NCBI GenBank assembly: GCA_024690725.1
Contig: JAILOQ010000053.1
Coordinates: forward strand, 1 to 33,013
Direction of reading: 5' to 3'
Source: Lachnospiraceae bacterium
GTDB lineage: Bacteria; Bacillota; Clostridia; Lachnospirales; Lachnospiraceae
Length of the DNA stretch: 33,013 nt
In this document: one piece after another, positions 11,024 through 23,574 of the stretch
Numbering within the stretch: position 1 is the first letter of the stretch
Layout of the letters: each line of letters begins with the position of its first letter
The notes under the pieces: generated by a model
What the model saw: only the letters and a program-made list of their open reading frames with translations
Database searches by the model: none
What the model was told of the DNA's origin: nothing
Program-made: the position numbers and the translations under genes

Positions 11024-12139
11024 ATGAGAGTAAATTATAACGTTTCCGCCATTATTGCGAACAAGGCACTGAATTTCAATGACAATTCTTTAAGTAATAT
11101 TTCCGAGAAATTATCCACCGGTTTTAAGATCAATCATGCAAAGGACAATCCGTCCGGTATGGCGATCGCAAAGCGTATGAATCTTCAGCTCAGAGGACTC
11201 AGCAATGCATCCCAGAATGCATCCGACGGTGTTTCCATCGTGCAGACGGCAGAAGGTGCGCTGCAGGAAATGCAGGCTATGGTTCAGAGACTGAACGAGC
11301 TTGCCGTTCAGTCGGCAAACGGTACCAACACCGAAGGCGATCGTGCGGCGATCGATGCAGAGGCAGATCAGCTGAAAAAAGAACTTGCGCGTGTAGCCGA
11401 GGATACCAACTTCAACGGAAAGAAACTCTTAAACGGCGATAATGACGTGAAGGGTTATACGGATACCATGGGTGTAAAGGTCTTTACCTATACCGATTCC
11501 GTGGAGACCAAAAACTATTCTTTTACCATAAATAATGTAAGCTTGGACGGAGACGGAAACATCGATCTGAAAGACGGCGATGTAACAATTTTACAAGATG
11601 GATCCGATACAGCCTTCCCCGGAGACTGTACTGTGTCGTATAATGGTAATAAGGTAACCATTTCCGGTGCGGGTGATTTCGAAGTCGTTTACGAGATCGA
11701 AGATCCTGCGGTGACCGGAGACGTGGAATCCGAACTGAAGGGTGTCGGCGCGATGCGCATGCAGATCGGTGCAAACGAAGGAGAAGTGATCGAGCTTCGT
11801 ATTCCTTCCGTAACTCTTGATGCGATGTGTATCGATAAGATCGATATTTCCACACCGGAAGGTGCTACGAAAGCAATTCAGATGACGGCAAACGCAAATG
11901 AGTATATCTCCAAGATCCGTGCCCGTCTTGGTGCTTATCAGAATCGATTGGAGCACACCGAAAACAGTTTGGATGTTACCGATGAAAACGTAACCGGCGC
12001 ATACAGCCGTATCATGGATACCGACATGGCAGAGGCAATGACGGAGTATTCCAATCTTCAGGTTCTTACACAGGCAGGAACTTCCATCCTGACACAGGCC
12101 AACGAAAGACCGCAGCAGGTGCTTCAGTTACTGCAGTAA
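11024..12139 (+). CDS. hag: Flagellin
   Basis: N-terminus NDNSLSNISEKLSTGFKINHAKDNPSGMAIAKRMNLQLRGLSNASQNASDGVSIVQTAEGALQEMQAMVQRLNELAVQSANGT; C-terminus NSLDVTDENVTGAYSRIMDTDMAEAMTEYSNLQVLTQAGTSILTQANERPQQVLQLLQ. Confidence 0.97.
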   Translation: MRVNYNVSAIIANKALNFNDNSLSNISEKLSTGFKINHAKDNPSGMAIAKRMNLQLRGLSNASQNASDGVSIVQTAEGALQEMQAMVQRLNELAVQSANGTNTEGDRAAIDAEADQLKKELARVAEDTNFNGKKLLNGDNDVKGYTDTMGVKVFTYTDSVETKNYSFTINNVSLDGDGNIDLKDGDVTILQDGSDTAFPGDCTVSYNGNKVTISGAGDFEVVYEIEDPAVTGDVESELKGVGAMRMQIGANEGEVIELRIPSVTLDAMCIDKIDISTPEGATKAIQMTANANEYISKIRARLGAYQNRLEHTENSLDVTDENVTGAYSRIMDTDMAEAMTEYSNLQVLTQAGTSILTQANERPQQVLQLLQ

Positions 12140-12158
12140 GAGAAAAGGCAGGTAACGT

Positions 12159-12632
12159 ATGGACAGTGAGTTAAAAAAGCAGTTTGCATTACGGATCACA
12201 CAGGCGTCCCGCACGGAGCTTGTGGTGATCACGTATGAGATGTTCTTGGTCTATATTGATGATGCAAAGAAGGATTTTACAAACGGGGATCAGAAGGCAT
12301 TCCGTTTGAATATTCAAAGAGCCAGAGGTTGTTTGAAGGAACTCATGGATTCGTTAAATTATGATTACGAGTTTGCCGGAAATCTTCTCTCCCTCTATGT
12401 GTATATCAGCAAGCAGCTGGTCATGGCGGATCTGCACAACGATCCGTTGCCCCTCGAAGAGACGATCAAGATCATCTCCAAATTAAGGGATGCATATGCG
12501 GCCATCAGCAATGAGGACAAAGAAGGACCGGTTATGGAGAACGCACAGACCGTAAATTCCGGTCTTACCTATTCCAAAACAGGGTTAAATGTCAGTGTTT
12601 CGGGCACAGACAATCGCGGATTTTTAGTTTAG
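12159..12632 (+). CDS. fliS: FliS-like flagellar export chaperone with a C-terminal extension
   Basis: QASRTELVVITYEMFLVYIDDAKKDF...RARGCLKELMDSLNYDYEFAGNLLSLYVYISKQLVMADLHND matches the FliS pattern. Directly after flagellin. Confidence 0.85.
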   Translation: MDSELKKQFALRITQASRTELVVITYEMFLVYIDDAKKDFTNGDQKAFRLNIQRARGCLKELMDSLNYDYEFAGNLLSLYVYISKQLVMADLHNDPLPLEETIKIISKLRDAYAAISNEDKEGPVMENAQTVNSGLTYSKTGLNVSVSGTDNRGFLV

Positions 12633-12813: not shown

Positions 12814-13278
12814 ATGAACTATTCCGATTGTATTTTGTTCGGGATTCTTTTCGTGGCCTTGATCATGGATTATAAGAGTAGTAAGATACCGAATCTGCTG
12901 ATCCTTTTCGGGTACGGGCTGGGCGTTGTGCTGTTGTTCTTTTCCCGGGAAGAGCTCTGGTATTTTTATCTGATCGACAGCATCTATATTCTGGCGATCG
13001 GGTATGTGCTCTACATCGGAGGCGTATTCGGCGGCGGAGATGCAAAGCTGTTCGCGGTGATCGCATTGTGGCTCGGGTTTGAACAGACCCTTATGGCCGG
13101 AGTGATCGCTGTGATCGCAGGCTTTATATGTTCCGTGTTTAAGATCATCGATCTGATCAGGAAAAAAGAATTCCAAAAAGAAAATTTTTCACATCTTACC
13201 ATTCATTTCGCACTGCCCATTTTTGTCGGGGCACTCATTTCGGAGGTTATCGTATGGAACCGGTTTTGGCAATTTTAG
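12814..13278 (+). CDS. tadV: Prepilin peptidase (A24 family, TadV/CpaA-like)
   Basis: MDYKSSKIPNLLILFG and GGVFGGGDAKLFAVIALWLG (GGGDxKL) motifs; multi-TM. Start trimmed to the ATG at 12814, downstream of the predicted promoter. Confidence 0.88.
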   Translation: MNYSDCILFGILFVALIMDYKSSKIPNLLILFGYGLGVVLLFFSREELWYFYLIDSIYILAIGYVLYIGGVFGGGDAKLFAVIALWLGFEQTLMAGVIAVIAGFICSVFKIIDLIRKKEFQKENFSHLTIHFALPIFVGALISEVIVWNRFWQF

Positions 13279-14300
13279 ACACGGACGAGCGTTATGTCCG
13301 CAGGCTTTCTGCGGCAATGGAAAAGCAGCAAAAGATCCCGTTTCGGATCATGGGCTTCAGCAAAGCGGAAGCGGCTATGGAATATGCCATGACGCAGAAG
13401 ATCAGCTTTCTTTTGGTGGAGGAAGGGTGCTGGGAGGAGTCAAAAACATATTTTCCGCTCAGGCACTTAAACGAGATCATTCTCCTGGTCAAAGAACGAT
13501 CGCGGGAGGAGGAAGTCTTTGAAACGGAGGAAGGCGCGATCCATGCGATCTGCAAGTACCAGTCCGGGGAGGATATCGTAAACAAGATCTTAAAGATCTG
13601 CCTGGAATACGGGGATGAGAAGGCGATCGCTTCGGCACTTACGGGCTCCGGGCATCACGCGCGGGTGATCGGGATCTATACGCCGATCGGCCGGTGTCTG
13701 CAGACATCGTTCAGTTTGATGTACTGCAAACTCATGGCGGTGGAGCACAAGGTACTCTATATGAATTTTGAAGTGTTTGCCGGTTTTCGCGAATGGTTTC
13801 AGCGGGAATACAAGACCGATCTGATGGATCTGATGTATTACCTGGATGATTCGAGGGAGAAGTTTTTATTGAAACTCGCGAGTCTGTCGGAGCGCTTTGA
13901 CGGGTTTTCCTATATCCCGCCGGCCTTGAGTTTTGAGGACTTTACCCACGTGGAAGAGGAGCAGTGGATCGAACTGATCCGTCTGGTGGCGGAGTCGGGA
14001 GAGTATGAAGTATTGGTTTTGGATCTGGGGGATCAGATGCGCGGACTGATACGGATATTAGAGCGTTGTGACAAGGTCTATACCCTGGCCAGAGGGGATG
14101 CGCTTTCCAAGATGAAGCTCAATGATTTTGAGGATGCCCTGCGTCTTTCCGGAAGAGAGAGCGTGATCGCAAAGATGACGAAGTGCCAGCTTCCGATCTT
14201 TCAAGACATGAGTCAGAAGGCGGAGCAGCTGCCGTATACGCAGCTGGCGGAATATATGAAGAAGAATCTGGCCGAGGATTTCAGGAAGGACAGTGCATGA
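13254..14300 (+). CDS. tadZ: TadZ/CpaE-like protein (receiver-like N-terminus, MinD-like C-terminus)
   Basis: AILDTDERYVRRLSAAMEKQQ receiver-like start; VIGIYTPIGRCLQTSFSLMYCKLMAVEHKVLYMNFE deviant P-loop; LVLDLGDQ; located before tadA. Confidence 0.82.
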   Translation: MEPVLAILDTDERYVRRLSAAMEKQQKIPFRIMGFSKAEAAMEYAMTQKISFLLVEEGCWEESKTYFPLRHLNEIILLVKERSREEEVFETEEGAIHAICKYQSGEDIVNKILKICLEYGDEKAIASALTGSGHHARVIGIYTPIGRCLQTSFSLMYCKLMAVEHKVLYMNFEVFAGFREWFQREYKTDLMDLMYYLDDSREKFLLKLASLSERFDGFSYIPPALSFEDFTHVEEEQWIELIRLVAESGEYEVLVLDLGDQMRGLIRILERCDKVYTLARGDALSKMKLNDFEDALRLSGRESVIAKMTKCQLPIFQDMSQKAEQLPYTQLAEYMKKNLAEDFRKDSA

Positions 14301-15583
14301 AAAGATCCGAAGAATACGAAGCGTTGCGTCAAAGCATAAGGCTTCAGCTGATGGATGATATGGACTATACCCGCGATATTTCGGATGAAGAGATCCTGGA
14401 GATGATCGATAGGGTCATTTCCGGTGAAGGAATGCGAAATCGTCTGTCACTTCAGGAAAAAAGAAATCTGCGAAAGGAACTCTTTGCCGCGATCCGCAAG
14501 CTGGATGCGTTGGAAACATTTCTGTCGGATCCTTCGGTTACGGAGATCATGGTCAACGGAGCGGACTGCATCTTTACGGAGAAAGCGGGCCGTCTGGAAA
14601 AAGAAAGCGTGACGTTTGAGTCTGCGGAAAAACTGGCGGATGTCATTCAGCAGATCGTGGCGAGAGTCAACCGCGTGGTAAATGAAACTTCTCCGATCGT
14701 GGATGCCAGGCTTTCGGACGGATCGCGCGTCAATGTGGTCATGCCGCCGATCGCCTTAAACGGGCCGATACTGACCATACGTAAATTCCCGGAGGATCCC
14801 ATAAGGATCGAGGATCTTTTGCGCATCGGCTCCGTTACCGAAGAAGTCGTGGCCTTCTTAAAGGATCTGGTCGTTGCAAGGTACAACATCTTTATCAGCG
14901 GCGGTACGGGCAGCGGGAAGACCACATTCTTAAATGCGCTTTCCGATTTTATCCCGAAGGATGAGCGCATCATTACGATCGAAGACAATGCGGAATTACA
15001 GCTGCGGGGTGTCGATAACCTGGTGCGGCTGGAGACCAGGAATGCGAACGTGGAAGGGTGCAACGCCATTACGATCCGAGATCTGATAAAGTCGTCTCTT
15101 CGCATGCGCCCCGACCGGATCGTGGTCGGAGAGGTCAGAGGAGATGAAGCGATCGATCTTTTGATGGCTATGAATACGGGACATGACGGTTCGCTTTCGA
15201 CGGGGCATGCGAACAGTGCAAGCGATATGCTGGTGCGTTTGGAGACGATGGTGTTGATGGGAATGGAGATGCCGCTTGCGGCGATCCGCAGGCAGATCGC
15301 ATCGGCCATTGATATCATTGTTCACCTGGGAAGATTGCGGGACCATTCGAGGAAGGTGCTGCAGATCTCGGAAGTCATCGATTATATCGACGGTGAAGTC
15401 GTTCTTTCTCCGCTCTATCGGTTTCGGGAGACGGGAGAGGACGCTATGGGTAAGGTAAAGGGGACGCTGGAAAAGGTCGGCGTCTTGGAACATACAGAGA
15501 AACTGGAAAGATGCGGCATAGGTTTAGCCGGGAATCAAACCTCCATTATAAAAAATGAAACAGATTGCAGACGTATGGAATGA
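14297..15583 (+). CDS. tadA: TadA/CpaF secretion ATPase
   Basis: NIFISGGTGSGKTTFLNALSDFIP (Walker A), RIITIEDNAELQL, LRMRPDRIVVGEVRGDEAIDLLMAMNTGHDGSLSTGHANS. ATGA overlap with tadZ. Confidence 0.96.
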   Translation: MKRSEEYEALRQSIRLQLMDDMDYTRDISDEEILEMIDRVISGEGMRNRLSLQEKRNLRKELFAAIRKLDALETFLSDPSVTEIMVNGADCIFTEKAGRLEKESVTFESAEKLADVIQQIVARVNRVVNETSPIVDARLSDGSRVNVVMPPIALNGPILTIRKFPEDPIRIEDLLRIGSVTEEVVAFLKDLVVARYNIFISGGTGSGKTTFLNALSDFIPKDERIITIEDNAELQLRGVDNLVRLETRNANVEGCNAITIRDLIKSSLRMRPDRIVVGEVRGDEAIDLLMAMNTGHDGSLSTGHANSASDMLVRLETMVLMGMEMPLAAIRRQIASAIDIIVHLGRLRDHSRKVLQISEVIDYIDGEVVLSPLYRFRETGEDAMGKVKGTLEKVGVLEHTEKLERCGIGLAGNQTSIIKNETDCRRME

Positions 15584-16316
15584 AATAGCCAAAAAACGAC
15601 CCAAAACAAAAGAAGAATGGCTTGGCATCTGCCTTAAGATCGTGCCTTTGTTTATCGCGATCGCCGAGTTGTTCTACGATTCCCTTTTGGCACTTCTTTT
15701 CCTGCTCCCCTTTATGATGCTGTTCTTTTTACAGGAGGAAAGAAAACTGGAAACGCGGCGGACGGAGCTTCTGACCATGCATTTCAAGGAGATGCTGCTC
15801 AGTATGGTGGCGGCCCTGAAGGCGGGGTATTCCGTGGAGAATGCATTTCGGGAAAGCTATCGGGATATCTCGTTTCGATTCGGTGAGAACGATGTGATGG
15901 CGCGGGAACTTCAGAAGATACTGCGGCAGACCAAAAACGGGATCCCGGTTGAAAAGCTGTTGCATGCGTTTGCGCAAAAGACCGATGTGGATGCGATCCG
16001 TGACTTTGCCGATATTTTTGCGATTGCCAAGCGAAGCGGCGGAGATATGGGAAAGATCATGGGGCGGACGATCTCCATTATCACCAGACAGATGGAGGTG
16101 AAAGAGGAAATCCGTCTGTTGGTGGCGGCCAAGCGGTATGAACAGCAGATCATGAATGTGGTGCCGCTGGGGATCCTTTTGTACATTCGGATGACGAATC
16201 CGGGATACTTCGACGGTTTATACCATAACGTAAGCGGGATCGCGATCATGACGGTGGTGCTCATCATATATGCACTGGCTTATGTTCTGTCAGAGAAGAT
16301 TTTGGAGATTGCATAG
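15555..16316 (+). CDS. tadB: TadB-like type II/IV secretion F-family membrane protein
   Basis: MVAALKAGYSVENAFRES, FADIFAIAKRSGGDMGKIMGRTISIITRQMEVKEEI, VVPLGILLYIRMTNPGYFDGLY. Confidence 0.9.
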   Translation: MKQIADVWNEIAKKRPKTKEEWLGICLKIVPLFIAIAELFYDSLLALLFLLPFMMLFFLQEERKLETRRTELLTMHFKEMLLSMVAALKAGYSVENAFRESYRDISFRFGENDVMARELQKILRQTKNGIPVEKLLHAFAQKTDVDAIRDFADIFAIAKRSGGDMGKIMGRTISIITRQMEVKEEIRLLVAAKRYEQQIMNVVPLGILLYIRMTNPGYFDGLYHNVSGIAIMTVVLIIYALAYVLSEKILEIA

Positions 16317-17612
16317 ATGAAGAAAGAGATGAAGATGGATCCTTATCTTCTCGATAAGATTGGGAAGATGCATCCGGGGAAGGATGCGAAGGCTTTAACA
16401 AGAGCATATTACGAGCGGAAAAAGAAACTGTGTCTTTTGACGATCTTTGCAGGTATTCTCTTAAGCGGCCTGATGTTCTTGTCGGAATCGGGGAAGGGAA
16501 GAATCGATGAAGAAGGAAAGATCCTGCGGCAGGATTACGGTGGCGAGGAAGTCGTTGTGGATACCGTCGTCGAAAGCGAATGCTACGGAAAGAGGGATGT
16601 AACGGTATCGGTGTCACCGCGAACGCACACGAAAGAAGAATTGCCGGTACTGTTTTCGGAGGCATTTTCGTATCTGCAGGGAGAGCTTTTGGGAGAAAAC
16701 GAAAGTTTGCAGAGGGTAACTAAGGATCTTTGTTTTCCGGATAGTTATGCGGAAGATCAGGTGCAGTTCGAATACCTCTCTTCGGATTATGCCGTGCTGG
16801 ATACGAAGGGGCATGTGCATAACGAGGAGCTTTCCGAGGAGACGAAGGTGACGGTGGAAGTTACGATGTATTACGGGGAAGAATCCAAGAAAGAGCAGTT
16901 TGAGGTCTGTGTCTGTCCGAGAGTGCTTGGCGAAGAGGAAGCGTTTTACGCAGCGCTCGAACAAGAACTTCGGGCGGAGGATGCAAAGAGTGTGGGAAAT
17001 GAGACGTTTGCCCTGCCGGAAACCGTAGAGGCGCAAAGCGTAGTGTTTGCAGAGAAGAAAGAGCACGGCAGCTTGCTTATGCTCGCGCTGACCTTTCTCT
17101 GTGCGCTCGCACTGTTTAAGGGAATGGATCGGGATGTGGAAAAGAATTATGAGAAACGGCAGCAGGAGCTGTTGTTTGCATATCCGGATTTCACCGGGAA
17201 ACTGGCACTTTTGACAGGCGCCGGAATGAGTGTGACGTCGGCACTTCGAAAGATCTTTGCAGACGGAAGCAAAACAAAGGATTCCGCGCTGATCGAGGAA
17301 CTGGGGATATATGTCAGGAGCATGGATAACGGGATGCTGGAAGAACAGGCACTGGCCGGGTTTTCCGCACGTGTGGGGCTGCCGCAGTACAGAAAGTGCA
17401 TCAGTCTGATAGCCACAAATGTGAAAAAAGGTTCTGTGAACCTGGGAGAGTTGTTGGAGCAGGAGGCGGAGGATGCATTTGTGGAGCATCAAAGTAGCAT
17501 ACGAAAAATGGGAGAAGAGGCAGGGACCAAGTTGCTGATCCCGATGGTCATGATGTTATCCGTTGTGATGGTTTTGATCATGGTGCCGGCGTTTCTCAAT
17601 TACCAAGTATGA
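16317..17612 (+). CDS. tadC: TadC-like F-family membrane protein with a large extracytoplasmic insert between TM1 and TM2
   Basis: C-terminal half AYPDFTGKLALLTGAGMSVTSALRKIF...KGSVNLGELLEQEAEDAFVEHQSSIRKMGEEAGTKLLIPMVMMLSVVMVLIMVPAF is T2SSF-like. About 200 aa of non-T2SSF sequence lies between TMs. Confidence 0.88.
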   Translation: MKKEMKMDPYLLDKIGKMHPGKDAKALTRAYYERKKKLCLLTIFAGILLSGLMFLSESGKGRIDEEGKILRQDYGGEEVVVDTVVESECYGKRDVTVSVSPRTHTKEELPVLFSEAFSYLQGELLGENESLQRVTKDLCFPDSYAEDQVQFEYLSSDYAVLDTKGHVHNEELSEETKVTVEVTMYYGEESKKEQFEVCVCPRVLGEEEAFYAALEQELRAEDAKSVGNETFALPETVEAQSVVFAEKKEHGSLLMLALTFLCALALFKGMDRDVEKNYEKRQQELLFAYPDFTGKLALLTGAGMSVTSALRKIFADGSKTKDSALIEELGIYVRSMDNGMLEEQALAGFSARVGLPQYRKCISLIATNVKKGSVNLGELLEQEAEDAFVEHQSSIRKMGEEAGTKLLIPMVMMLSVVMVLIMVPAFLNYQV

Positions 17613-17627: not shown

Positions 17628-17795
17628 ATGAAAGCATGGAAAAAGTTTTGGATGGATGAACGTGGCATCGGTACGGTGGAGATGATTCTGATTCTCGTCG
17701 TTCTGATCGCTCTCGTACTCATCTTTAAGGACCAAATGACAGATCTGGTCAACACCATTTTCAAAAAGATCAACAGTCAAAGCAGTAAGGTTTAG
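17628..17795 (+). CDS. flp: Flp-like type IVb pilin (55 aa)
   Basis: MKAWKKFWMDERGIGTVEMILILVVLIALVLIFKDQMTDLVNTIFKKINSQSSKV. GAGAAAGGAG Shine-Dalgarno, prepilin site G|IGTVE with Glu+5, hydrophobic helix. Not in the supplied ORF track because of its length. Confidence 0.9.
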   Translation: MKAWKKFWMDERGIGTVEMILILVVLIALVLIFKDQMTDLVNTIFKKINSQSSKV

Positions 17796-17808: not shown

Positions 17809-19290
17809 ATGAAGAATAACTCATGGAAAGGTTCGGTCAGTATTTTTCTGGTTCTGGCATTTACCGTAATATTATCGTTGCTACTGACCTTGATCGAAGG
17901 CGCCAGGCAAAATGCGATTCGATTAAAGGCAGAGTGTGCCTATGACTTGGCTATGCAGTCCGTATTTGCGGAATACAACAGAGAGCTGCTGGAGCAATAT
18001 GAGTTATTCTTCATTGATGTGACATACGGAAACGGCGGAAACATACATTGCCTGGAAGATCATTTTAAGGGGTATCTTACGGACAATACCGACCTTGGAG
18101 AGACCTACGGACTCATAAAGGATCTGACGGCGGTATATCCGCAAAACGTCACGGTGGATGCGTATTCCCTCGCCACCGACGCAGGAGGGGAAGTGTTAAA
18201 ACGACAGGCCGTTGGCTATATGAAAAATCTGTACGGCATGGATTACTTAAAGGAAATACAGAGCGAACTGGCTACGGTGGAGGATTACGATCTGGTGGAA
18301 AGAGACATTACTTCCGAACGGCTTTCCAATCAGAGCGCGATCGATAACTTTGAAATCCCGCCGAAGAAAAAGGATGCGACGGAGGATGAATGGGAAGAAG
18401 TGGAGATTGACAATCCGGCCGATGCGGTGAATGCAACAAGGGGAATTCTTTCGCTGGTGATCGATGCGGATACGGAGATTTCGACGATGGCCGTAAATCC
18501 GCAAAACTATGTTTCCGGGCGCAGTCTGAATGTCGGAAGCGGGCTTGGAAAAAGAGAAGGGGTCGGCGCAGCCGATGAACTGATCTTTCATGAATACCTT
18601 CTGCAGTTTTGCGGGTATTATACGGAGCCGAAAGAAGAGGGACTGTTGCAGTACCAGGTGGAATACATCCTGATGGGAAAGAGCAGCGATATCGATAATC
18701 TCAAAGCGATCGTAAATCGGTTGTTGTTGCTTCGGGAGACCGCAAATGTGACCTATCTGTTTTCGGATGAAGCAAAAGTGGCGGAAGCCGAGGCTTTAGC
18801 GGCAACGGTCTGCGCTGCCGTGGCGCTTCCGGAACTGACGGAGCTTGTGAAGATTTCCCTTCTGTTTGCCTGGGCTTATGCCGAGAGTGTGTATGATGTG
18901 AAACAACTCCTCAAAGGCGGGCGGGTTCCCATCGTAAAGACGGCAGAGACCTGGCACTACAGCTTGGAAGGGATGCTGCAGTTCACACAGGACGGATCGG
19001 CGGATGTGGTGGAGCAGACGGCGGATGATGCCGATACCGTCGGTGCATCGGACGAAACGATCGCCGATGGATTAAGCTACAAGGATTATCTGCGTGTTTT
19101 TCTGGCATTGGAGGGAAGCGAAAAGAAGACGAAACGAGCGATGGATATCATAGAAATGGATATCCGAAAGACACCGGGAAATGCGGGCTTTCGCCTGGAC
19201 TGCTGTGTGGACCGGGCAGTGATCACGGCGAATTTCGCAAGCAAGTACGGGGGATCGTGTGAGATCACGAGAGAGTGGTATTACTACTGA
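17809..19290 (+). CDS. TadG-like / possible DUF5702 extracytoplasmic protein
   Basis: N-terminal TM GSVSIFLVLAFTVILSLLLTLIEGARQNAIRLKAECAYDLAMQSVFAEYNRELLEQYELFFID; inside the tad operon. Family name is from memory. Confidence 0.7.
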   Translation: MKNNSWKGSVSIFLVLAFTVILSLLLTLIEGARQNAIRLKAECAYDLAMQSVFAEYNRELLEQYELFFIDVTYGNGGNIHCLEDHFKGYLTDNTDLGETYGLIKDLTAVYPQNVTVDAYSLATDAGGEVLKRQAVGYMKNLYGMDYLKEIQSELATVEDYDLVERDITSERLSNQSAIDNFEIPPKKKDATEDEWEEVEIDNPADAVNATRGILSLVIDADTEISTMAVNPQNYVSGRSLNVGSGLGKREGVGAADELIFHEYLLQFCGYYTEPKEEGLLQYQVEYILMGKSSDIDNLKAIVNRLLLLRETANVTYLFSDEAKVAEAEALAATVCAAVALPELTELVKISLLFAWAYAESVYDVKQLLKGGRVPIVKTAETWHYSLEGMLQFTQDGSADVVEQTADDADTVGASDETIADGLSYKDYLRVFLALEGSEKKTKRAMDIIEMDIRKTPGNAGFRLDCCVDRAVITANFASKYGGSCEITREWYYY

Positions 19291-19310
19291 AAAGAGAGGA
19301 GTGTCCGACC

Positions 19311-20249
19311 ATGCCCTTTGTGGGAAACGTCACAAAAAAAACAAGAATTAATAATTCTCGGAAACATACTTCGAATAGCGTTTATAAAAACAATCCATTC
19401 CGGATCCCCAAAAAAGAAAAAACGCCACAAAGGGTTTGGTCGGGCATTGACCTTCTTTCATTAGGGATGCGGGGCAGTCTTACGGTTGAGGCTGCCCTGG
19501 TCTTCCCGATCTTTTTATTTGCGATCATGTCGCTTCTTTCGTTTGTCAGCATCCTTCAGCTGGAAATGAAGGTAAACGGGAGTCTGTCATCCGTGGCAAA
19601 AGAAACGGCCGTTTATGCCGCTGTAGGGGAAGATGCATTGGGGGAGCTCGGAGAATCCGGGATACTCGGCGGTACACTTCTTTCGGAGACCTATGTGCGG
19701 GCCATGGTAATGAAGGATCTGGGCAGTGAGTATATTGCAAAGAGCCCTGCGGAATCTGCCATGAACTTTTCCTTCCTGGGAAGCACCTTCATGGAAGACG
19801 ACAGGATCGAGTTGCATTGCAATTATAAGGTGGAACCGTTCTTTTCTCTGAGCCCGCTATCCGGTTTTTTCGTCGGTGACGTTGCTCTGGCACGCGCCTA
19901 TACCGGATACGATAATGCGGGGCAGGCGCTTGCAAACGAAAAGGAAGAGATCGTATATATCACGCCGTATGGGACGGCATATCACAAGGACAAGAGTTGT
20001 AACTATCTGGACCTGAGCATACAAAGGTCTCTCGGAGAGCAGGTGGGAGCGTTGCATAACAAAGACGGCGGCCGTTATCATGCCTGTCCGATCTGTGCGC
20101 GGGGAAAGAAGGATGCGGTGGTTTATATTACGGATTACGGAGATTGCTATCATAACGATGCGTTTTGTTCCGGACTGAAACGCACGGTGGAAGCGGTTCC
20201 GATTTCCAAAGTCGGAGGGCGAACACCATGTATGAAATGTTATGGGTAA
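19311..20249 (+). CDS. TadE-like pseudopilin with two C-terminal Cys/His repeats
   Basis: RG|SLTVEAALVFPIFLFAIMSLLSF type IV pilin-like segment; C-terminal VYITPYGTAYHKDKSCNYL...CPIC and VYITDYGDCYHNDAFCSGL...CMKC. ATG at 19311 follows GAGAGGAG. Confidence 0.85.
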   Translation: MPFVGNVTKKTRINNSRKHTSNSVYKNNPFRIPKKEKTPQRVWSGIDLLSLGMRGSLTVEAALVFPIFLFAIMSLLSFVSILQLEMKVNGSLSSVAKETAVYAAVGEDALGELGESGILGGTLLSETYVRAMVMKDLGSEYIAKSPAESAMNFSFLGSTFMEDDRIELHCNYKVEPFFSLSPLSGFFVGDVALARAYTGYDNAGQALANEKEEIVYITPYGTAYHKDKSCNYLDLSIQRSLGEQVGALHNKDGGRYHACPICARGKKDAVVYITDYGDCYHNDAFCSGLKRTVEAVPISKVGGRTPCMKCYG

Positions 20250-20662
20250 AAGGGGGACTGGCGTTGTTTTTGACCGGGTTATCCATCGTTGATCTGAAAA
20301 GAAAACAGGTTCCGCGACTCCCTTTGGTCGCTGTCGGAGTGCTTGGGATCATCGGAGTGTCCGGTGCGGGCCGGGCGGAGACTGCCTCGGTTTTGATCGC
20401 ACTACTCGTCGGGGCGGCATTTCTTTGGCTCGCTTTTGTAACGGAGCAGGCGATCGGATACGGCGATGTGGCAACGATCGTTGTTTTGGGCCTGTACTGC
20501 GGGATCTATGTTCTGATACTTTCTTTGATGATCGCATTTCTCGCGGCCTTTCTCGTCGGAATGATCTTGTGGATCACGAAACGCAAGGGCAAGAAAGATC
20601 AGATCCCGTTTCTGCCGTTTTTGACGATCGGATATGTTGTCGGAGGTTGTTTATGGACATGA
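20228..20662 (+). CDS. Second A24-like prepilin peptidase
   Basis: SIVDLKRKQVP and EQAIGYGDVATIVVLGLY resemble the two A24 catalytic Asp motifs; polytopic membrane protein. Confidence 0.75.
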   Translation: MYEMLWVKGGLALFLTGLSIVDLKRKQVPRLPLVAVGVLGIIGVSGAGRAETASVLIALLVGAAFLWLAFVTEQAIGYGDVATIVVLGLYCGIYVLILSLMIAFLAAFLVGMILWITKRKGKKDQIPFLPFLTIGYVVGGCLWT

Positions 20663-21090
20663 AGTTTATCAGGGATGAAAGGGGAAGCTTTACTGTGGAA
20701 GCGGCGGTGATCGTCTCGTTTATGTTCTTTGTGATACAGGCATTTATTTTTCTGTCGTTTTATCTTTTTAATCTATGCTCGGTCACGCGTGCCGCGGAAA
20801 TGGCGGCGTTGCGTGCAAGTCAGGCCGTGTGGGAAACGTCGCAGGAACGCTATAACATTGCAAGTGCTGCTGTTGCGGAGATTTTGGAACACAATCTGAT
20901 CGGAGAAGCGCAGATTTCATCGAAGATCACATCCAAGGCGCATAAGGTAACGGTGGAGGTCGGATGTAAAAGCACATCGTGGCAGCAGACGGTCACGGCT
21001 TCCCGCAATGTGATCCATCCGGTCCAGCTGCTTCGGGAGGCGAGAAAAATTAAAAAACTTGGTGAAGACAAAGGAGAGACGGAAGAATGA
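20653..21090 (+). CDS. TadE/TadF-like pseudopilin
   Basis: MDMKFIRDERG|SFTVEAAVIVSFMFFVIQAFIFLSFYLFNLCSVTRAAEMAALRASQAVWE. The ORF-track entry at 20425 is trimmed to the ATG at 20653. Confidence 0.82.
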   Translation: MDMKFIRDERGSFTVEAAVIVSFMFFVIQAFIFLSFYLFNLCSVTRAAEMAALRASQAVWETSQERYNIASAAVAEILEHNLIGEAQISSKITSKAHKVTVEVGCKSTSWQQTVTASRNVIHPVQLLREARKIKKLGEDKGETEE

Positions 21091-22484
21091 GAACAGAATT
21101 CAGAAGAGAAGACCATAAGAATCTTTTGGTGATCCGCATGGATCCGTTACAGGTGAAGGATGCGGGAGAGTTTGCCTGTACGATGTTGAAAGAGAACAGG
21201 ATGAAATATCTTCTTCCCACGGAAATCCGTTCGTTCAACGGCGAGACGGAGATCGGTTTTGATATAACGTCGAGACAGCCGCTGGATATTCTCTATGAAA
21301 AGCAGACCATGGACAAAGAAGATATCCGCGCATTGCTTGCGGGCATCTTAAAGGTATCGGAAGAGCTGGAGCGGTTCTTATTGGATGAAGAAGGGCTGGT
21401 GTTGGAACCGTCCTATATATACGGCGGGCGCAAGGGCGAAGTCCGTTTTCTTTACGATGCAGGGTTCTCGCTGGATTATAAGGAAGAAGTGGACCGGCTT
21501 CTTGAGTTTTTGCTGGAGCATGCGGACAAAGAAGATAAGGACGCGGTGATGGCATCCTTTGGTTTTTATCAGAAGGCGCGGGAATATGAAGGCGATATGA
21601 TCCGGGCGATCCGGGAATTTCTGGAGGATCCGGCACAGCCTTCAAGGTCCGTCGAAGTCGCAGGACCGATGGGGGATGAGAATGAAAAGGATGAATTCTT
21701 CGTGTTTCCAGAAGAAGAGGAGGCAGAGGATATGTCGACGGAAGCGGAGAAACTGCCCCGCCGGAGAAAAGAAGGATTTATGGCATCCATGGTATTTTTC
21801 GGAATTCTGGGTGTCGGAGGACTGGGCCTGTTTGGATATACGTGGATGGCGTTTTCCATACAACGTCCGCAGGAGCTTCTTAATTACAGCGGCTGTATGG
21901 CAGGTATCGCGTTGGCCGCATTCTCGCTGATCGGTATCATCGTATGTATCCTGAAAAAGAAAGCGGAAAAGAGCCGGGGAAAACAACGTACAGATAGCGG
22001 AGCCGGCCGATCGGATGAGGCAGATCTTCTGTCCGAAGTACAAGATTTCGGGGAAGGGAGCGAAGCGCGGGAGGTAAGCATGAAGCGGGAGGCAGGCGAG
22101 GATATGCATGAGCCGCGCGAAAGGGGATGGTCCGAAGATGACGGAAAGGCAGAAGAGAGGACCGTTCTTTTGGAGGAAAACAGTTACAAGGAGCAGAGGA
22201 TCTTAAAGGGACGTATCCGCGGGCGGCAACGGGAGATCGATCTGTCGGCTTTCCCGTTTGTTATCGGGAAGAACAAAGATCAGGCGGACTACGTCATAGA
22301 AGATAATTCGATCTCAAGGATCCATGCCAGATTTACGGAGCGTGACGGGATCGTGTTTATCACGGACTTAAATTCCTTAAACGGGACATTTCTGAACGGG
22401 ATCCGTCTGGTCCCGCAGGAGATGAGCATGTTAGAGTCCGGCGATGAGGTAACGATGGGAAGGCTCAGCTTTACATACACCTAG
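21087..22484 (+). CDS. Tad-operon protein: N-terminal pseudokinase-like domain (DUF6382-type), TM segments, C-terminal FHA domain
   Basis: FHA motif FPFVIGKNKDQADYVIEDNSISRIHARFTERDGIVFITDLNSLNGTFLNGIRL; TMs MASMVFFGILGVGGLGLFGYTWMAF and CMAGIALAAFSLIGIIVCIL; N-terminus EIGFDITSRQPLDILYEKQTMDKEDIRALLAGILKVSEELERFLLDEEGLVLEPSYIYGG. Confidence 0.85.
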   Translation: MRTEFRREDHKNLLVIRMDPLQVKDAGEFACTMLKENRMKYLLPTEIRSFNGETEIGFDITSRQPLDILYEKQTMDKEDIRALLAGILKVSEELERFLLDEEGLVLEPSYIYGGRKGEVRFLYDAGFSLDYKEEVDRLLEFLLEHADKEDKDAVMASFGFYQKAREYEGDMIRAIREFLEDPAQPSRSVEVAGPMGDENEKDEFFVFPEEEEAEDMSTEAEKLPRRRKEGFMASMVFFGILGVGGLGLFGYTWMAFSIQRPQELLNYSGCMAGIALAAFSLIGIIVCILKKKAEKSRGKQRTDSGAGRSDEADLLSEVQDFGEGSEAREVSMKREAGEDMHEPRERGWSEDDGKAEERTVLLEENSYKEQRILKGRIRGRQREIDLSAFPFVIGKNKDQADYVIEDNSISRIHARFTERDGIVFITDLNSLNGTFLNGIRLVPQEMSMLESGDEVTMGRLSFTYT

Positions 22485-22527: not shown

Positions 22528-23574
22528 ATGAAACGGAAAATCATTTATTATCTCGGACAGCTCGGATATCGGGAGATGAATACCACCCATCCCGAGATCA
22601 CCCTGTTATTCAAAAAAGAAGAGAGTTTCTGCGATCTTTTGCTCATCATGGATATGATGGCAAATCCCTATCTGACAAAGGACGTGGTCGCACAGGTGAC
22701 GAAGCACAGCGTTTGGCGGTTTCACGATCTGGGAATTGCGGAAGTGCATCATTTGACGCTGTTATACAGCGGAGATTATGCCACGGCAGAGAAGGTAGGT
22801 GAAGATGAGCCGTTTTGCTGGATCCTGGATCCCATGGCGAAAAAGGTAGTCGTTCCTCCGGGCAAGGTGGAAGACTACTATGGGATGCGCAGTCAGCTGG
22901 ATGATTTTATGGTGGCACCCGATCCGCCCGAACAAAAAGAACGGATCAAGTACGGCACAGACGGAAAACCGCTATTGAAACTCAAACAACAGCCCCTGGT
23001 CAACCATGGGCTTTTTGTCGTGAATGTCATTGTATTCATGCTCTCCACACTTTCCGGGTTTGGCCTGAATCAGCTGGGAAAACTGGAAGTGCGCTCATTT
23101 TTGGACGGGGAGTATTACCGGATCGTTACGGCGATGTTCTTACACGGCGGGATCGAACATATCGCCGGAAATATGCTGATGTTATATTATCTCGGGAACA
23201 TGATAGAAAAAGAAATGGGACATATCCGCTATTTTCTTTTGTACATGCTTTCCGGTGTTTGTGCGGGTTTTGCGAGCATGGCATTTCAATGGTATGTTCT
23301 TTCACAGGGAGGGGACATCGGCGGCAGTGTCGGTGCCAGCGGTGCTATTTTCGGTATCCTGGGAGGATTCCTCTGGATGTTTTTAAGGGATAAAGATCGT
23401 TTTCGGGGCATGACGATAAAAAAAGTCATATGGCTGATCGTCTATCCGCTTTACACCGGATTTGTTTCGGAAAACGTGGATAATGCGGCGCATGTCGGTG
23501 GACTGATCGCAGGTTTTGTCCTGGCGATCTTCTTATACAAAAAGAAGTTACAAAAGACGGAAGAAAGGCTATAA
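22528..23574 (+). CDS. Rhomboid family intramembrane serine protease
   Basis: FLHGGIEHIAGNMLMLYYLGNMIE, GGSVGASGAIFGILGG, NAAHVGGLIAGFVLAI. N-terminal soluble extension of about 150 aa. Confidence 0.93.
   Translation: MKRKIIYYLGQLGYREMNTTHPEITLLFKKEESFCDLLLIMDMMANPYLTKDVVAQVTKHSVWRFHDLGIAEVHHLTLLYSGDYATAEKVGEDEPFCWILDPMAKKVVVPPGKVEDYYGMRSQLDDFMVAPDPPEQKERIKYGTDGKPLLKLKQQPLVNHGLFVVNVIVFMLSTLSGFGLNQLGKLEVRSFLDGEYYRIVTAMFLHGGIEHIAGNMLMLYYLGNMIEKEMGHIRYFLLYMLSGVCAGFASMAFQWYVLSQGGDIGGSVGASGAIFGILGGFLWMFLRDKDRFRGMTIKKVIWLIVYPLYTGFVSENVDNAAHVGGLIAGFVLAIFLYKKKLQKTEERL

Follow-up and report, generated by a model that had tools for sequence, protein, structure and literature searches.

The TadE/F/G minor pilins of Tad pili have been proposed to form tip complexes with variable domains (Herrou and colleagues, PMC12075869). 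Work on Micrococcus luteus counts against placing such proteins at the tip, since no TadE/F was detected in sheared pili of this species, for which a position at the base was favoured (PMC4322843). The protein described below is a Tad minor pilin that carries tandem, remotely Ada-related His-Cys3 modules. In a literature search, with subscription journals mostly outside its reach, we found neither a description of this tail nor a paper explaining the function of these Lachnospiraceae minor pilins.

The window analysed is a stretch of 33,013 nucleotides, in which a complete Tad cluster surrounds the focus gene, with all of the genes listed here on the forward strand. The first copy of a prepilin peptidase (Peptidase_A24, Pfam PF01478; 12715..13278) is followed by a TadZ-like protein (13254..14300; Pfam PF21194) and a TadA-type ATPase (14294..15583), which was recognized by Pfam T2SSE and scored under the cut-off of TIGR03819. 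A TadB-like membrane protein (15555-16316) was assigned from its position and by eye, a TadC-like membrane protein (16317-17612) from a match to Pfam T2SSF, and a 55-aa Flp pilin with the site RG/IGTVE (17628..17795) by eye. The focus gene has two conserved neighbours, a DUF5702 protein upstream (17809..19290; Pfam PF18960, E 9.9e-91) and a DUF6382-FHA protein downstream (21087..22484; Pfam PF19909 and PF00498). Between the focus gene and the latter lie a second A24 prepilin peptidase (20228..20662; Pfam PF01478), whose ATG already lies within the focus gene, giving an overlap of 22 bases at the 3' end of the latter, and a second TadE-type pilin (ERGSFTVEAA, 20657..21090, start chosen by eye) that scores 16.3 bits, under the cut-off. 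Two other genomes share the order DUF5702, focus gene, A24 peptidase, DUF6382-FHA; the DUF5702 neighbour is seen at loci L108 and L111. No paper on DUF5702 was found in the literature search.

Several further features of this region were observed. Two prepilin peptidases occur within one Tad cluster, and the second is also found behind the focus orthologue in other genomes. The TadC-like protein (16317-17612) shows a weak match to aBig_2 (atrophied Ig-like) on the N-terminal side of T2SSF, at 26 bits against a cut-off of 27; such a domain is unusual for TadC. A rhomboid-like membrane protease, recognized by eye, is encoded 3' of the cluster (22528-23574). A flagellin-like protein and a small FliS-like protein, also identified by eye, are encoded directly 5' of it (11024-12632), so that flagellar genes adjoin the Tad genes.

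The reading frame of the focus gene (19275-20249) is open from a GTG at 19275. The ATG at 19311, preceded by GAGAGGAG, is the likelier start and was chosen by eye, giving a TadE-like minor pilin gene at 19311..20249. The prepilin cleavage site RG/SLTVE and the hydrophobic N-terminal helix (19467..19571) were located from 26 orthologues, the TadE match and a structural model. The G codon of the site begins at 19473 and the S codon at 19476, and both the Ser and the Glu are invariant in the alignment of the 26 orthologues. The sequence RG/SLTVEAALVFPIFLF combines the G/XXXXE prepilin site with the hydrophobic helix of TadE proteins, and a long N-terminal helix is present in the AlphaFold model. 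The first-pass annotation had called the N-terminus TadE-like, and this holds in that the prepilin site G/SLTVE is present, though the score against Pfam TadE (PF07811; 22.0 bits, E 1.8e-4) falls narrowly under the curated cut-off of 22.9. The genomic setting also corresponds to that of TadE proteins, the gene being located in a tad locus together with Flp, TadA, TadB/C, TadZ and a prepilin peptidase.

The same annotation had placed two tandem Cys/His modules at the end of this pilin, and these were found in frame at codons 19950-20246. Their limits were set from the translation, the orthologue alignment and profile comparison. Module 1 (19953..20105, forward strand) and module 2 (20121..20246, forward strand), which runs to the stop codon, share the pattern His-x4-Cys...Cys-x2-Cys. 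The codons of the four putative ligands have their first bases at 19983 (His), 19998, 20085 and 20094 (Cys) in module 1, and at 20151 (His), 20166, 20229 and 20238 (Cys) in module 2. In order to assess the kinship of the two modules, their profiles were compared using hhalign, which returned a probability of 97.9 and a score of 66. The best score reached in 40 column shuffles with Cys and His held fixed was 15.2. Since the observed score lies far above those of the shuffles, the modules represent a true repeat and not a chance pattern of Cys and His residues. AlphaFold modelled the whole protein with a mean pLDDT of 83.5 and the module tandem with a mean of 88.1, both being fairly confident models, and the predicted order of elements in module 1 is strand-strand-strand-helix.

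Of 299 genomes of the same family, 286 gave a homologue in a full-length search. Judging from the named close relatives (mostly Lachnospiraceae metagenome-assembled genomes from gut and rumen), this family is the Lachnospiraceae. All eight ligand residues are invariant in the alignment of 26 orthologues, in which the mean identity per column is 47%. Other sequence sets were picked partly by motif, so that invariance is partly built into them, and for this reason we prefer the figure from a search of 100 genomes in which the query consisted of the N-terminal 155 residues only. This search gave 80 matches in 76 of the genomes. When the full genes were read, both modules were intact in 72 matches; seven were other TadE-type pilins or unrelated ORFs that lack the tail, and one, L236, is a true orthologue in which one Cys is missing from each module. 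Non-conservation of the Cys pattern in orthologues had been set beforehand as a refutation test, and the pattern withstood it, all eight ligands being kept in 72 of the 73 true orthologues obtained with the N-terminal query. The L236 protein (genome G062, reverse strand) represents a natural double loss of one ligand Cys per module. This suggests that the two sites function together and may become dispensable; given this case, the ligand sites are not indispensable everywhere.

In all of the 27 proteins compared, the best match of module 1 was the module 1 of another protein, and module 2 likewise paired with module 2. This kinship was judged from nearest-neighbour scores, as about 45 residues carry little tree signal, and it indicates that the duplication predates the radiation of the family. 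A search for other TadE proteins with this tail had been suggested in the first-pass annotation. Besides the near-universal occurrence within the family, a class-wide sample yielded tandem-bearing TadE-like proteins at two loci, L155 and L163, in genomes G590 and G785, both of which belong to one other family.

To find relatives of the module on other proteins, we searched with a profile of the tandem and then with profiles of the single modules. SNase-type nucleases, MBL-fold proteins and a DNA/RNA non-specific endonuclease were found to end in the module. It also ends Cu_amine_oxidN1 proteins, one of which (L049) has two modules, as well as a peptidoglycan-binding protein (PG_binding_1) and lipoprotein-like and coiled-coil proteins. 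Both Tad modules have the form that we call VYIT-type, V-Y-[IV]-T-x2-G-x2-YH-x3-5-C...C-x2-C located close to the C-terminal end of an exported protein, and they match the VYIT-type secreted module with profile probabilities of 98.0 and 97.2, with shuffles scoring 16.2 at most. The likeness that had been noted from the sequence, to a module ending some secreted nucleases and MBL proteins, is therefore borne out, by these probabilities of 97-98 and by the recovery of such proteins. No name for the VYIT-type secreted C-terminal module was found in Pfam, and the C-terminal His-Cys3 module of secreted proteins is apparently without one. Loci including L049, L070, L073, L055 and L115 carry an Ada_Zn_binding-related C-terminal His-Cys3 module across the Bacillota.

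On unrelated exported proteins, including the PG_binding_1 protein, the module usually ends no more than five residues from the stop codon. Such a placement would suit a generic C-terminal tag that fixes exported proteins to the cell wall, and on the pilin the tag would anchor the pilus base or the minor pilin itself. We regard this as unlikely: neither a ligand in the wall nor a mechanism of sorting is known, many of the carriers are already lipoproteins, and the C-terminus of a pilin is also the place for a tip domain.

A second group of relatives connects the module to the Ada_Zn_binding family (PF02805). In this YIGN-type form (YIGN...KFHxPxC...EEAIxAGYxPCKxC), the module passes the PF02805 cut-off in several nucleases and MBL proteins, among them relatives such as L070 and L073. 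The tail of the focus pilin gave no match to PF02805, and direct profile comparison of the Tad module with Ada gave values near zero. As far as profile comparison can tell, the Tad modules reach Ada only via two intermediate profile steps. After the step from the Tad modules to the VYIT-type form given above, the chain runs from the VYIT-type to the YIGN-type form with a probability of 95.7 and from the YIGN-type form to Ada with 98.2; its scores lie between 49 and 71, and shuffles reach 16.2 at most. When a profile of the secreted module was compared with the PDB, Ada structures ranked first, at an E value of 0.34 that is not significant. Foldseek found no match in the PDB for either the whole protein or the module pair, so that the connection with Ada is one of sequence profiles, and phmmer found none for the tail. 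Profile matches to zinc-finger proteins and to CHCHD5 were rejected, as what aligned there were short segments of linker-like or CxxC character.

In the alignment with both modules, Ada Cys38, the methyl acceptor, corresponds to His, while Cys42, Cys69 and Cys72 correspond to the three Cys residues. Because the position of Cys38 is His in all forms, Ada-type repair chemistry is not expected; the four-ligand site is retained. The proposal that the tail forms a metal-binding or redox-sensitive tip can accordingly be divided. Its metal-binding part is favoured by the conservation of the ligands and by the distant link to the Ada zinc domain. For the redox part, it could be argued that an exported protein with a Cys-rich tail uses its cysteines for disulphides or as a redox switch in place of metal sites. 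We consider this highly improbable, as three Cys residues and one invariant His per module fit a metal site and not disulphide pairs. At codon 20145 the focus tail has one additional, non-conserved Cys ('GDCYH'); the commonest residue at this position is Arg (57%). The remote kinship with Ada and the gut or rumen habitat of the carriers, which are mostly anaerobes, also count against a redox role.

The presence of the same module at the end of many extracellular nucleases, together with its remote link to the DNA-binding Ada domain, raises the question of whether the tandem is a DNA-binding head with which the Tad pilus catches extracellular DNA for import by ComEC. ComEC was found in all of 60 family genomes; none of the 60 reached the cut-off for ComGA, and 33 contained a strong match to a PilB-type ATPase (E below 1e-70). 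Moreover, tad genes are required for the Flp-dependent transformation of M. luteus (PMC4322843). ComEC is nearly universal across bacteria generally, and this tempers its weight as evidence. Since many carriers of the module are non-nucleases and the basic character of the modules is mild (net charge averages +1 for module 1 and +2.9 for module 2; it is +1 and +2 in the focus pilin), we assign the DNA-binding head a low probability. It is about equally possible as the wall-anchoring tag. The fuller proposal, that the Tad tip bears a zinc-built DNA receptor and that the pilus is the DNA-uptake machine of the Lachnospiraceae, appears less probable still.

From the results presented above, it seems probable that the focus protein is a TadE-like Tad minor pilin in which two structural-zinc modules form an exposed, ligand-binding head, probably in a tip complex. 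As a minor pilin of the Lachnospiraceae Tad (type IVc) pilus, it would be cut by prepilin peptidase at G/SLTVE, and its N-terminus would pack into the filament base. The outward C-terminus would then bear the two tandem, anciently duplicated modules. Each of these most likely binds one structural Zn(II) through His-Cys-Cys-Cys, which would fold about 45 residues into a rigid knuckle; we infer zinc as the metal. The two knuckles would constitute the exposed head of the pilin, placed at the tip by analogy with the TadE/F/G tip complexes (PMC12075869), where the DUF5702 protein and the adjoining second TadE protein would be natural partners. Such a head would bind a surface ligand at the tip. A near-invariant, two-site predicted metal head offers a concrete handle on what the pilus of a dominant gut family binds.

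Comparison with described systems places the focus pilin close to TadE-like minor pilins (PF07811) and to the TadE/F/G tip complexes of Tad pili, such as the Kil tips of Myxococcus (PMC12075869), with which it shares a Tad locus, a G/XXXXE site, a single N-terminal helix and an outward C-terminal domain. It differs from them in its tandem His-Cys3 domain and its Gram-positive Lachnospiraceae host, and its own tip position is proposed by analogy. The VYIT-G-KYH-C...C-x2-C tail of secreted nucleases and MBL proteins matches the Tad modules in ligand pattern and spacing; enzymes and lipoproteins usually carry this tail only once, whereas the Tad pilin has two diverged copies. An apparently unnamed tail of secreted proteins is thereby tied to a remote Ada relative in which the methyl-accepting Cys is replaced by His. 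The Ada_Zn_binding domain itself (PF02805; the N-terminal domain of Escherichia coli Ada, PDB 1ADN, 1EYF, 1U8B, 1WPK and 1ZGW) resembles the Tad module in its four-ligand site and terminal C-x2-C. In Ada, a repair protein, the first ligand is the methyl acceptor Cys38, whereas the Tad module has His at this position and is exported.
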